Source: Flavobacteriales bacterium
GTDB taxonomy: Bacteria; Bacteroidota; Bacteroidia; Flavobacteriales_D; Sanyastnellaceae
Direction of reading: 5' to 3'
DNA: 40,432 nucleotides
NCBI GenBank assembly: GCA_015665315.1
Contig: JADFAK010000122.1
Span: forward strand, 1-40,432
Below are positions 14,994 to 21,335 of the stretch, one piece after another. Position numbers and translations under genes: made by a program. Within the stretch, counting starts at the first letter, position 1. Each line of letters starts with the position of its first letter. The notes beneath the pieces are model-generated. The model was not told where the DNA came from. It saw only the letters and a program-made list of their open reading frames with translations, and did no database searches.

Positions 14994-16589
14994 ATGCACA
15001 TGCAAAAGATTCTTACCGCTGTATTGATTTGTTGTTCCTTATCGGGATTCGCACAAAAACAGCATTTCGTTGATTTTTATGAAGATGGTCAAAAGATGAC
15101 CGAAGGCTTTTATGAGCGCGGAGTAGAACACGGCGTGTGGAAGTCTTACTATGCCAGTGGAAATTTAAGAGATAAGAATCATTACTGGTATGGCAAGCTA
15201 CACGGCTCGGCCAAAGAGTTTTACGACAACGGCCAAATCAAACATGAAGGATACTTTCACCTTGGTCAGCGAGACAGCATCATGCGCACCTGGAATTTAA
15301 AAGGTGTACTGCTTGAAGAAGGGTCTTTTTCGGACGGCGATCGTATTGGAATTTGGAATTATTACCATTCGGCTGATTTACTGTGGATGACTGAAAATTA
15401 TACGGATTCGGCCATGTACCTGCTCGCCTTGAACGATGCTGAGGGCAAAGAGATGATCGTTGACGGCAAGGGAACAAAATTAGAATTCAACGAAGGAGGA
15501 TCACTCAAGCGTGAGACTTCATATCTGGGCGGTCTGCCCAACGGTCCTTATAAAGAGTATTATTCTGGAGGTGAAATCAAAGTTGAAGGTTCTTATTCAA
15601 GCGGGCTAAAAGATTTGACATGGACGGAGTACTATCGAGATGGCAAGCCGAAAAAAATATCAACGTATAAAGTGGGTTCGTTGGATGGCATTTTTGAGCA
15701 GTATTTCCGTGAAGGGCAGCTGGAATTCAAGGGATTGTATGCCAACGGAAAGAAACAAGGCGATTGGAAGTGGTATTTGGAAGATGGGAAGCTCGATATG
15801 GAAGGTCAGTTTGTAGATGATGAGCAAGAAGGAACTTGGACCTGGTGGTATAGCAATGGTAACAAATACTATTACGGAAATTATTCGAAAGGCAAAAAAG
15901 AGGGCGAGTGGAATTTCAACTACTTCGGAGGAGAGCCTTGGAAGAAGGGGAGTTATGCCAACGACATGAAGGAAGGGCATTGGGATTATTGGTTTGAAGG
16001 CGGAGGTGATTTAATGAAAGGATCTTTCCTGAATGACGAAGAAGAAGGAGAGTGGTTCAGTTGGTATGATTCGGGAAGTCAGAAAGACATTGGGTTCTAT
16101 TCTAAGGGAAAAATGAACGGTCCTTGGGTCGGTTGGTATCCGAACAAAGTGAAGACTTACGAAGGTCAATGGACCAACGATTTGAAAACGGGTCAATGGA
16201 GCTATTGGTACGAAAATGGACAAGTTAGAGAAACGGGCAAGTACGATCAAGAAGGCAAGAAGACAGGGTATTGGGAGAGTTACGGTCCGTCAGGAATCTT
16301 GGAGATGAAAGGAGAGTACTCCGAAGGCACTCCTGACGGCGATTGGTTTTACTACTATGGAAATGGAAGCCCTATGCAGTCGCAGTCGTACAAGGATGGG
16401 AAGATGAACGGCAAGGCCTTGTCCTATAATAAGTCGGCCAAAGTCGTGCAAGAAATTAACTACAAGATGGGTAAACGGCACGGTGATTACAAGGTGTACA
16501 ATGATAAGAATGGAAAGTTAGACCTGCATTTCGTGTACGAGAATGGAATGGTGGCCAAGGTTGTGGTGAACAAACGAGCTGGTAAATAA
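14994..16589 (+). CDS. Secreted MORN-repeat (MORN_2/YwqK-like) protein
   Basis: The 531-residue protein has a signal peptide ('ILTAVLICCSLSGFAQ'), then about twenty tandem repeats of roughly 23 residues covering nearly the whole chain. Each has the form G-x-W-x-x-Y/W-x-x-x-G-x-x-x-x-x-G-x-Y, as in 'HGVWKSYYASGNLRDKNHY' and 'DWKWYLEDGKLDMEGQF'. This is the MORN_2 variant found in YwqK-type proteins. The database name 'YwqK family antitoxin' is a family label only; no toxin gene is adjacent. The repeats form an extended beta structure and the protein is expected outside the inner membrane. A second ATG two codons later (15000) is an equally possible start. Confidence 0.87.
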   Translation: MHMQKILTAVLICCSLSGFAQKQHFVDFYEDGQKMTEGFYERGVEHGVWKSYYASGNLRDKNHYWYGKLHGSAKEFYDNGQIKHEGYFHLGQRDSIMRTWNLKGVLLEEGSFSDGDRIGIWNYYHSADLLWMTENYTDSAMYLLALNDAEGKEMIVDGKGTKLEFNEGGSLKRETSYLGGLPNGPYKEYYSGGEIKVEGSYSSGLKDLTWTEYYRDGKPKKISTYKVGSLDGIFEQYFREGQLEFKGLYANGKKQGDWKWYLEDGKLDMEGQFVDDEQEGTWTWWYSNGNKYYYGNYSKGKKEGEWNFNYFGGEPWKKGSYANDMKEGHWDYWFEGGGDLMKGSFLNDEEEGEWFSWYDSGSQKDIGFYSKGKMNGPWVGWYPNKVKTYEGQWTNDLKTGQWSYWYENGQVRETGKYDQEGKKTGYWESYGPSGILEMKGEYSEGTPDGDWFYYYGNGSPMQSQSYKDGKMNGKALSYNKSAKVVQEINYKMGKRHGDYKVYNDKNGKLDLHFVYENGMVAKVVVNKRAGK

Positions 16590-16666
16590 GAGGGTGGAGA
16601 TATTGAGGCGAGACCTACTATAAACATGATTTTCCCCATGATAGTGCCAAAAAAGCAAAAACATAC

Positions 16667-16675
16667 TATATTTGC
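16667..16675 (+). promoter_or_regulatory. -7 promoter element of the rimP-nusA-infB operon
   Basis: TATATTTGC is an exact TAnnTTTG match. Transcription would start near 16679, giving a leader of about 60 bases before the rimP ATG, with a terminator hairpin inside it. Confidence 0.6.
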
Positions 16676-16700
16676 GCTGAAATAGCGAAGTAGTACAGAG

Positions 16701-16726
16701 GAGGGGTGAGCACCCCTCTTTTTTTT
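16701..16726 (+). terminator. Intrinsic terminator (attenuator candidate) in the rimP-nusA-infB leader
   Basis: GAGGGGTG (16701-16708) and CACCCCTC (16711-16718) are perfectly complementary. Read as a 7-bp stem with a GAGC-type tetraloop, they are followed directly by eight T residues (16719-16726). It lies between the operon promoter and the rimP ATG 12 bases further on, too far from the preceding gene's stop (about 110 bases, with a promoter between) to be mainly its terminator. Confidence 0.8.
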
Positions 16727-16738
16727 GATTGCAAGCGC

Positions 16739-17206
16739 ATGATCTCAGAAGAAACCGTCTTATTGTTGATTGAGGAGAAGGTAGAAGGCAGTGCCAACTT
16801 TCTAGTCTCGCTAAAGATTAGCGTTGATAATGTCATAGACATTCTCATGGATGGAGATGATGGATTTTCGATTCAAGATTGTATGGATTTGAATCGCTAT
16901 TTGAATAAAAAGCTGGACAGAGACATTGAGGATTACAATCTCAGGGTCTCTTCTCCTGGGTTGGACCAGCCATTTATGGTGCGCCGACAGTACTACAAGA
17001 ATATCGATCGGGATGTGAAGGTTGAATTGAATGACGCCAGCACAATTGAAGGAAAGCTAGTAGAGGTGGACGACGATAAAATTACGGTACGCACAAGAGT
17101 AAAAGAACGAATTGAAGGTCGCAAGGCCAAGCACTGGGTAGAAACGGATCATGAAATAGAGTATCCTACTATTCAGTCGACAAAAGTTATAATATCATTT
17201 AATTAA
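16739..17206 (+). CDS. rimP: Ribosome maturation factor RimP
   Basis: The 155-residue protein is full-length RimP, needed for 30S subunit maturation. The N-terminal alpha/beta domain includes 'VSLKISVDNVIDILMDGDDGFSIQDCMDLNRYL' (read in two parts), then the family signature 'DYNLRVSSPGLDQPF' near residue 72. The C-terminal SH3-like domain spans about 88-155. I chose the ATG at 16739. The frame is open 11 codons further upstream, but that start would lie inside the leader terminator. It is the first gene of the conserved rimP-nusA-infB order, 10 bases before nusA. Confidence 0.95.
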   Translation: MISEETVLLLIEEKVEGSANFLVSLKISVDNVIDILMDGDDGFSIQDCMDLNRYLNKKLDRDIEDYNLRVSSPGLDQPFMVRRQYYKNIDRDVKVELNDASTIEGKLVEVDDDKITVRTRVKERIEGRKAKHWVETDHEIEYPTIQSTKVIISFN

Positions 17207-18497: not shown

Positions 18498-21335
18498 ATG
18501 ACGAATACCAGTAAAGCAGTTAGACTGAGCAAAGTCGCCCGCGAATTGAACGTTGGTATTGTGACGATCAGTGAATTCCTGGAAAAGAAGGGAATGCCGA
18601 TTGAAACAAATCCCAATACGAAGATTGAACCGGACGTATATGAGCTTTTAATGGGCGCATTTCAAGGTGAAAAAGCTGTCAAGGAGAAATCCGAGCAGAT
18701 TCTCACTCGAACTCGCGAACAGAGAGAGTCTGTCTCTATTGAATCGACTAAGAAAGCTGAGCCCGAAGAAGTGGCGGAACCTGAACCAGTGGCTCCTGCC
18801 CCTGCACCAGCTCCGCCTAAGGCTGAAGAGCCAGCTAAAGTAGAGCCTCCTAAAGTTGAAGAGGAGAAAGCTCCTGTTGCACCTGAAAAGGTGGCTGAAA
18901 AGCCTATTGAGAAGGAAGAAAAAGTAGAGAAGGAAGAGCCTAAAGCCAAAGAAGAAGCCCCTAAAGCTGAGGCCGAGACTCCTGGAGTGCACAAAACCAA
19001 TGTGCCCAAAGCAGAAGTGAAGGTTCTTGGTAAGATGGACCTCGATAAGGCGAAGAAAAAGCCAGCCAAAGCGAAGGAAGAAGAAAAGCCAGCGGCGGAA
19101 GCAAAGGAGCCTGAAGCACCAAAAACTGCCCCTGCCCCTGAAGTTAAAAAAGACACTGCAGCCGAGAAGCCTGAGTTTATCAAAGCGAAAGCTGAGAAGT
19201 TATCAGGTCCGACAGTAGTGGGTAAGATGGTCCTCAAAGAGGAGCCAAAGAGAAAGAAAGGTGGCCCTGTAGCGTCATCCAAGGATAAAGCGGGTGACTT
19301 GTCTAAAGGCAAGCGCAAGCGCAAACGTGTTGCAAAAGTAGATGTGCAACAGCAGACGACCCAACAACGTCGCGCACCAGGCGGAGCAGGTGCTTCCAAG
19401 CCAGGTACCAAGGGACGAGTGGCCAAACCCGAGATTAGCGAAAAAGACATCCAAAAAGAGATCAAGGAAACCCTTGCTCGTCTTAGTGGAAAAGGAAAAT
19501 CAAAATCTTCTAAAAATCGTCGACAGAAACGAGATGATCGTGCTGCGCAAAGTGAGGAGGATTTGGTAAGAGCAGCTGAAGAGCGTCTTATCCTTAAACT
19601 TACTGAGTTTGTGACCGTGTCGCAACTTGCGAGCATGATGGAAAAGTCGGCAACTGATATTATCTCAGCTTGTATGTCCCTCGGAATTTTTGCCTCGATC
19701 AACCAACGACTCGATGCTGAAACTATTTCGATCATTGCCGAAGAGTTTGGTTACCAAGTTGAGTTCGTAAGCTCAGATGTTCAAGAATCTATTCCAGAGG
19801 AAGTAGATGCACCTGAAGATCTGCTTCCAAGACCTCCAATTGTGACGGTTATGGGACACGTAGATCACGGTAAGACTTCGCTGTTGGATTACATACGTAA
19901 GGCCAATGTGATTGCCGGAGAGGCTGGAGGTATCACACAGCACATTGGAGCGTATAGCGTTGTTCTCGAGGATGGTCGGAAGATGACTTTCTTGGATACA
20001 CCTGGTCACGAAGCCTTTACGGCCATGCGTGCTCGTGGTGCTCAAGTAACAGATTTAGCTATCATCGTAATTGCTGCTGATGATGCGGTCATGCCTCAAA
20101 CGAAAGAGGCCATTAGCCACGCGCAAGCAGCCGGCATCCCTATGGTGTTTGCGATCAACAAGATTGACCGCGAAAATGCCAATGCCGACAGAATTAAAGA
20201 AGAACTCTCTGGAATGAACATTCTCATTGAAGAATGGGGTGGGAAGTATCAGAGTCAAGACATTTCAGCCAAAACTGGTTTGAATATCAAGGAACTTTTG
20301 GAGAAGGTATTGCTCGAAGCTGAGTTACTCGATCTTAAAGCCAATCCGAATAGAAAAGCCATAGGTACAGTTGTAGAGTCAACCTTGGACAAAGGACGTG
20401 GTTATGTAACTACACTGTTGATTGAGACAGGGACAATGCGTGTTGGTGATCCAATCCTCGCAGGTCAGTGGAGCGGAAGAGTTCGTTCGATGTTCAATGA
20501 ACGCGGACAAAAAGTAAAAGAAGCCGGGCCTTCGACGCCAGTTTCAATGCTCGGACTATCCGGTGCGCCGAATGCGGGTGATAAATTCCATTTGTTTGAA
20601 GATGAGAAAGAGGCTAGAGTTATTGCTTTGAAACGTCAGCAATTGCAACGTGAGCAAGGTATCCGTGCCCAACGTCATATTACGATGGAGGAAATTGGCC
20701 GACGAATCGCTGTGGGTGAGTTCAAGGAATTGAACTTGGTTGTGAAAGGTGACGTGGATGGTTCTGTAGAAGCACTTACTGATTCATTGGAGAAATTGTC
20801 TACTGAGAAAGTACAGGTGAACGTAATCCACAAAGCTGTGGGTGGCGTGTCTGAATCTGACGTTCTTCTGGCTAGTGCTTCTGATGCAATCATTATCGCT
20901 TTCCAAGTAAGACCTAGTGCAACTGCACGAAAGTTGGCTGAGAAAGAAGGCATCCAGGTTCGCCATTACTCTGTGATTTATGCAGCTATCGATGAGATGA
21001 AAGAGGCCATGGAAGGTTTGCTTTCAGCGAAAATCGAGGAACGCGTTACAGGTACTGCTGAAATCCGCGACATATTCAAGATCTCGAAAGTGGGAACCAT
21101 TGCTGGTTGTTTCATGCTCGATGGAAAGATTACAAGAAAGAGCAAGGTGCGAGTCGTGCGAGATGGCATCGTGATCTTCAGCGGAGTTTTGGGCAGCTTG
21201 AAGCGATTCCAGGATGATGTTAAAGAGGTTACGAAAGGCTTTGAGTGCGGATTGAACGTAGATAAGTTCAACGATATCAAAGAGGGCGACCTGATTGAAG
21301 GATACGAAGAAGTTGAAGTGAAACAGACACTCTAA
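18498..21335 (+). CDS. infB: Translation initiation factor IF-2
   Basis: The 945-residue IF-2 delivers initiator fMet-tRNA to the 30S subunit and promotes subunit joining. A short N-terminal IF2_N-like module ('VRLSKVARELNVGIVTISEF') is followed by about 230 residues of Ala/Glu/Lys/Pro-rich low complexity (about 75-310). A second IF2_N segment lies near 360-400. The GTPase domain has G1 'GHVDHGKT' at 453-460, G3 'DTPGHEAFTAMRARG' and G4 'NKIDRENAN'. Domains II, III and the C-terminal initiator-tRNA domain ('SKVGTIAGCFMLDGKI') complete it. It is the last gene of the rimP-nusA-infB unit. No convincing terminator is visible before the convergent SPOR gene 53 bases on. Confidence 0.97.
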   Translation: MTNTSKAVRLSKVARELNVGIVTISEFLEKKGMPIETNPNTKIEPDVYELLMGAFQGEKAVKEKSEQILTRTREQRESVSIESTKKAEPEEVAEPEPVAPAPAPAPPKAEEPAKVEPPKVEEEKAPVAPEKVAEKPIEKEEKVEKEEPKAKEEAPKAEAETPGVHKTNVPKAEVKVLGKMDLDKAKKKPAKAKEEEKPAAEAKEPEAPKTAPAPEVKKDTAAEKPEFIKAKAEKLSGPTVVGKMVLKEEPKRKKGGPVASSKDKAGDLSKGKRKRKRVAKVDVQQQTTQQRRAPGGAGASKPGTKGRVAKPEISEKDIQKEIKETLARLSGKGKSKSSKNRRQKRDDRAAQSEEDLVRAAEERLILKLTEFVTVSQLASMMEKSATDIISACMSLGIFASINQRLDAETISIIAEEFGYQVEFVSSDVQESIPEEVDAPEDLLPRPPIVTVMGHVDHGKTSLLDYIRKANVIAGEAGGITQHIGAYSVVLEDGRKMTFLDTPGHEAFTAMRARGAQVTDLAIIVIAADDAVMPQTKEAISHAQAAGIPMVFAINKIDRENANADRIKEELSGMNILIEEWGGKYQSQDISAKTGLNIKELLEKVLLEAELLDLKANPNRKAIGTVVESTLDKGRGYVTTLLIETGTMRVGDPILAGQWSGRVRSMFNERGQKVKEAGPSTPVSMLGLSGAPNAGDKFHLFEDEKEARVIALKRQQLQREQGIRAQRHITMEEIGRRIAVGEFKELNLVVKGDVDGSVEALTDSLEKLSTEKVQVNVIHKAVGGVSESDVLLASASDAIIIAFQVRPSATARKLAEKEGIQVRHYSVIYAAIDEMKEAMEGLLSAKIEERVTGTAEIRDIFKISKVGTIAGCFMLDGKITRKSKVRVVRDGIVIFSGVLGSLKRFQDDVKEVTKGFECGLNVDKFNDIKEGDLIEGYEEVEVKQTL

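Follow-up and report, generated by a model that had tools for sequence, protein, structure and literature searches.

A putative attenuator in the leader of the rimP-nusA-infB operon, and its conservation across the Bacteroidota

Terminators in front of the rimP-nusA-infB operon have been described in several bacteria; what follows draws on the accessible parts of the papers cited. The rimP-leader of Naville and Gautheret (2010, PMC2965389) is a terminator hairpin upstream of rimP-nusA-infB that was reported as widespread in bacteria and for which NusA was proposed as the effector. In S. agalactiae, RNA-seq of the 5' element of the same operon revealed premature termination 31 nt after the transcription start (PMC4448216), and in B. 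subtilis NusA is autoregulated through NusA-stimulated termination in its own leader (PMC12288461, citing Mondal 2016). The metY-rimP-nusA-infB operon of E. coli carries two terminators, t1 and t2, upstream of rimP and is subject to feedback by NusA, and its transcripts increase in mutants with reduced NusA termination (PMC6511841). Within the Bacteroidota, F. psychrophilum was reported to carry a structured element 5' of rimP that lacks an Rfam match and is also present in other genera of the Flavobacteriaceae (PMC9723704). Searches of the openly licensed literature gave no phylum-wide description of this leader and, judged by title and abstract, no further paper among those listed that describes it in Bacteroidota, and PMC8060035 contains no occurrence of ylxS or of nusA autoregulation.

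Here, we analysed a stretch of 40,432 nucleotides from a Flavobacteriales bacterium (contig JADFAK010000122.1; the window), in which rimP, nusA and infB follow a short leader (Table 1). A sequence-only reading of the window had placed a -7 promoter element, a perfect hairpin, eight T residues and the rimP ATG in this order, and in a check of the sequence each was found where it had been placed; the base that follows TATATTTG is a C, which had been counted into the -7 element. The consensus that the element follows, TAnnTTTG, is the one printed for F. psychrophilum in the accessible text of PMC9723704. The upstream promoter box, GTGCCA at 16644, is a poor match. The same reading had proposed that a transcript would meet a full terminator ahead of any coding sequence, and this agrees with the leader RNA of ~47 nt predicted from a putative start near 16680. 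The rimP ATG occupies 16739-16741, and 12 nt separate it from the end of the T-tract. An in-frame GTG at 16706 lies inside the hairpin and lengthens rimP to 166 aa in the mechanical list of open reading frames, so that automatic annotation could misplace the rimP start at this codon.

Table 1. Features of the rimP leader and of the neighbouring genes in the window
Feature	Position	Strand	Basis or remark
MORN_2 repeat protein, 531 aa, directly upstream of rimP	14994-16589	+	Domain match
-7 promoter element TATATTTG	16667-16674	+	Sequence; Bacteroidota consensus TAnnTTTG
Predicted terminated leader RNA, ~47 nt	16680-16726	+	Start inferred from the -7 element
Terminator hairpin GAGGGGT-GAGC-ACCCCTC, 7-bp GC-rich stem	16701-16718	+	Sequence; left arm GAGGGGT 16701-16707, loop GAGC 16708-16711, right arm ACCCCTC 16712-16718
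T8 tract completing the intrinsic terminator	16719-16726	+	Sequence
rimP, 155 aa, first operon gene	16739-17206	+	Pfam RimP_N 1.4e-08
nusA, 411 aa	17217-18452	+	NusA_N, S1, KH domains
infB, 945 aa, IF-2	18498-21335	+	

The window leader shares with the rimP-leader, as the latter is described in the accessible text, a short G-rich/C-rich hairpin with a T-stretch just upstream of rimP and no larger conserved element. Specifically, (i) the hairpin lies upstream of rimP, which heads an operon that also holds nusA and infB, (ii) a G-rich 5' arm is followed by a C-rich 3' arm and then by the T-stretch (16701-16726), (iii) the 12 nt between terminator and gene start fall within the 4-130 nt of the rimP-leader, and (iv) the leader holds no larger conserved element or antiterminator, in line with the general form. 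Compared with the motif GGGc(...)gCCC, taken from the accessible text and without the published logo, GGG and CCC are present and the innermost pair is T-A instead of c-g. Unlike in the rimP-leader, the C-rich arm comes first in some Bacteroidota families; moreover, the main text of PMC2965389 has no occurrence of 'bacteroid' or 'flavobacter'. The S. agalactiae element is similar in that its terminator lies a few tens of nucleotides past the start and in that NusA feedback was suggested there, but termination was seen by RNA-seq in that organism whereas it is predicted in the window. In E. coli, the final hairpin before rimP is GGGC-TTTAG-GCCC followed by T7; that leader has two terminators and a gene for tRNA-fMet upstream, whereas a single hairpin and no tRNA gene are present in the window. 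The F. psychrophilum element belongs to the same phylum and the same gene, and we liken it to the window leader by its description in the accessible text and not by sequence or structure. In total, the kind of leader that we describe is already known and named.

The folding data are in agreement with this assignment. The leader RNA of ~47 nt folds into one hairpin at -16 kcal/mol, and equally stable folds were obtained with 3/200 shuffles; the longer stretch 16680-16760 is less unusual overall (-21.6, z -1.69, equally stable shuffles 13/200). Within the 155-nt region, the best hairpin with a T-tract reaches -14.8 kcal/mol, a value that none of 300 dinucleotide shuffles matched, while -8 was reached by 13 of these 300. 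Among 20 terminator-like sites between 8 and 27 kb, the hairpin has the most stem pairs (11). The hairpin is retained in both the minimum-energy and the centroid structure of 16680-16760, with no antiterminator seen, and the order alignments revealed no conservation of the leader spacer across the window's order as a whole; the remark that no antiterminator partner is obvious therefore stands. Separately, a string, CGCTTTnGGYAC, lies between the -7 element and the hairpin in 10 loci over three sets (L004, L007, L024, L031, L038, L041, L045, L053, L055 and L080), nine of them in the order. A known Rfam element as the identity of the leader was rejected: Rfam covariance models gave no match in the window at the gathering score, whether riboswitch, T-box or other leader, and the three sub-threshold matches (E 1.2 to 5) concern eukaryotic RNA families in every case and lie away from the hairpin.

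The sequence-only reading had named conservation of the hairpin in close relatives as a check. We searched 80 genomes of the window's order, including the window's own, and found rimP in 77 of them at 78 places, of which 77 were taken. All 77 loci have a -7-like element with a GC-rich hairpin and a T-tract 11 to 34 nt downstream of it in a lenient test (at least 5 pairs, at least 3 GC pairs, at least 4 T in 8), and so the check came out in favour of the hairpin. The exact TAnnTTTG precedes the hairpin in 74 of the 77, and a stricter folding test was passed by all 76 loci with sufficient upstream sequence. Genome-wide, the pattern GAGGGG-N(3-6)-CCCCTCTTTTT occurs at 34 places in the 80 genomes, 25 at rimP and nine elsewhere; thus, the exact string GAGGGG...CCCCTCTTTTT is enriched at rimP yet is not exclusive to it. 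Hairpins with this string distant from rimP were seen in G004 (four places) and G027 (two places), and these are perhaps ordinary terminators.

Beyond the order, we scored a hairpin that has a dG of -8 or lower and is followed by a tract rich in T (5 or more in 8) within 150 nt upstream of rimP. A scan with a NusA alignment gave a named Bacteroidota set, the best 80 named loci among the matches listed, of which 76 had rimP and 75 were usable; within this selection, 69/75 have the terminator. In a phylum set of 74 genomes sampled from 118, 73 had rimP and 71 of these have it. Over all sets, 216 of the 224 Bacteroidota loci tested carry a terminator upstream of rimP (213 of 221 distinct upstream regions), counts that take in close relatives and are not independent events. 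The sequence-only reading had suggested that logic like that of E. coli may have evolved in this lineage; a lineage-specific origin finds no support in view of the 216/224 loci and of the accessible text of PMC2965389, in which the leader is printed as widespread in bacteria. In six of the 74 named loci scanned, among the matches listed, a tRNA-Gln (TTG) gene lies upstream of rimP on the same strand (L092, L095, L099, L101, L110 and L111), an arrangement that recalls metY (tRNA-fMet) before rimP in E. coli.

Eight loci fall below the cut-off. The terminator of L217, at -7.8, is just short of it, and no hairpin was found in the rimP leaders of L118 and L191. By eye, the remaining five retain the hairpin with a T-tract that is interrupted or displaced (L125, Butyricimonas; L140, L147 and L148, Chitinophaga; L153, Bacteroidales), and a shift of mechanism in these leaders is possible. 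They also lend some support to the idea that the hairpin acts within the full-length mRNA, on translation or mRNA stability, and not on the end of transcription. We consider a role of this kind improbable: a T-rich tract directly follows the stem in 216/224 loci, and the distance from the hairpin apex to the start codon varies widely, from 9.5 to 132 nt in 180 loci.

The argument from conservation is made by comparing rimP leaders with the starts of other genes and with shuffled sequence, and conservation far exceeds these controls. Per-pair covariation counts were set aside because the finders demand pairing and such counts are no independent test; MAFFT alignments, moreover, shift the left arm out of register where the loop length differs. 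In the same dG test, 19/248 other gene starts from the order and named loci score, as do 39/448 shuffled leaders. With a simple-stem test, a terminator alone is present in 146/152 rimP leaders versus 10/247 other starts, and the full arrangement with an exact -7 element in 135/152 versus 0/247; the control set takes in operon-internal genes, and loci that are related do not count as independent. The 17 rimP leaders without the full arrangement comprise five with tRNA-Gln upstream and no exact -7 element between the tRNA and the hairpin (L092, L095, L099, L101 and L111), three with a one-base variant of the -7 element (L018, L052 and L053), three in which the element is too distant from the hairpin or beyond the tested stretch (L021, L088 and L090), and six without a scored terminator.

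The MORN-repeat gene has the same orientation as rimP, with 149 nt between its end and rimP, and the hairpin could accordingly be read as its ordinary 3' terminator. Across the phylum the data speak strongly against this: among 213 loci with an upstream ORF of at least 100 aa, 99 have this ORF on the opposite strand (orientation called mechanically), and 97 of the 99 still bear the hairpin and T-tract before rimP. In addition, a promoter element lies between the MORN-repeat gene and the hairpin in the window. We rejected this explanation, which we regard as highly improbable. In 180 loci, the distance from the -7 element to the hairpin apex is 34.4 on average (sd 7.3) and that from the apex to the start codon 34.3 (sd 13.8), which points to a closer tie of the hairpin to the promoter than to the start codon, in a comparison that is biased that way because the nearest -7 element within 75 nt was taken and start distances up to 150 nt were admitted. 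The 180 loci are those with an exact TAnnTTTG within 75 nt upstream; the other 36 of the 216 terminator-bearing loci, chiefly outside the window's class, are without one, and the linkage of promoter and hairpin appears from these sequences to be less well supported outside this class.

The stem offers a different kind of evidence. The G-rich arm is the 5' arm in 75 of the 76 order loci scored (one is even) and in 69/69 scored named loci, drawn from the best 80 among the matches listed. Of the 71 phylum-set loci scored, 50 have the G-rich arm on the 5' side and 16 on the 3' side, and five are even. The C-rich arm comes first in seven families (f22, f23, f25, f28, f34, f35 and f39), none of which belongs to the window's class; for L215 (f33), the sixteenth such case, the scored hairpin differs from the obvious one, whose G-rich arm comes first. 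Among the stems that replace one another are GAGGGGAC/GTCCCCTC, AAGTGGGG/CCCCACTT, TCGCCC/GGGCGA and TAGCCCG/CGGGCTA. Because stem sequence and arm polarity vary across the phylum, it appears to be termination rather than one sequence that is conserved. Structure and T-tract persist as the sequence changes, which fits selection for termination and agrees poorly with a single sequence-specific reader for the whole phylum. Within the window's class, the stem sequence is much more uniform than across the phylum, and a local contact is possible there. We did not treat arm polarity as proving a specific binder: the reverse-polarity pattern has no match in the 80 genomes, and the G-first bias may thus be general to terminators here. 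One could join these observations and suppose that sequence turnover and arm swaps mean that the controller reads termination and not an RNA motif, that the GAGGGG...CCCCTC-type stem, nearly fixed in the window's class, may mark a clade-specific NusA contact and that Chitinophaga-like lineages with a broken T-tract have gone over to strictly factor-dependent or hairpin-only control; we regard this combination as unlikely.

Combining the folding data with the conservation data, we suggest with high confidence that the feature is a leader attenuator of the rimP-nusA-infB operon. The terminator, its conservation and, in the window and its order, its position after a promoter element are taken from sequence comparison; from these we infer the transcription start, termination in the cell and a role of NusA in setting terminator efficiency. 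In this model, RNA polymerase, starting ~20 nt ahead of the hairpin, would reach the intrinsic terminator after ~47 nt, and rimP, nusA and infB would be transcribed only by those complexes that read through. Since nusA is a member of the operon headed by the leader, NusA made from it would most likely increase termination at the leader site and close a negative feedback loop.

That NusA is the main controller seems probable by analogy with the systems described above; unlike in B. subtilis, for which the accessible text reports NusA-stimulated termination, NusA dependence of the window leader is proposed by this analogy. According to the accessible literature, B. subtilis terminators that require NusA or NusG tend towards weak hairpins or broken U-tracts. 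The window stem is GC-rich, its hairpin-plus-T-tract has -14.8 kcal/mol, and its tract is T8; accordingly, the window leader is not assigned to these terminators. With a strong hairpin and eight uninterrupted T, it might work without NusA.

Alternatively, the attenuator may respond to another input, namely RimP, IF-2, NusG, cold-shock proteins as antiterminators, or effects of growth rate on polymerase speed, and the evidence for the terminator would be identical. In B. subtilis, intrinsic terminators are a target of NusG as well, as reported in the accessible part of that literature. For cold-shock proteins, there are three cold-shock-domain matches in the window's genome, and antitermination by the CspA family was proposed for the E. 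coli operon (Bae 2000, cited in PMC6511841); in the accessible text of PMC6511841, however, no sign of relevant read-through events was reported for E. coli after cold stress. The changing stem sequence and arm polarity make one sequence-specific binder acting phylum-wide less likely. We hold such other inputs to be the less likely solution, and favor an attenuator with feedback by NusA as the best explanation as a whole, with a probability of roughly 0.6.

With the census presented here, the rimP-leader attenuator now takes in 216 of the 224 loci tested in Bacteroidota, and conserved termination is set apart from conserved sequence. If control by NusA holds in Bacteroidota, the arm swaps would make a sequence-specific reader less likely, and feedback on nusA by termination in the leader would span Gram-positive, proteobacterial and Bacteroidota lineages.
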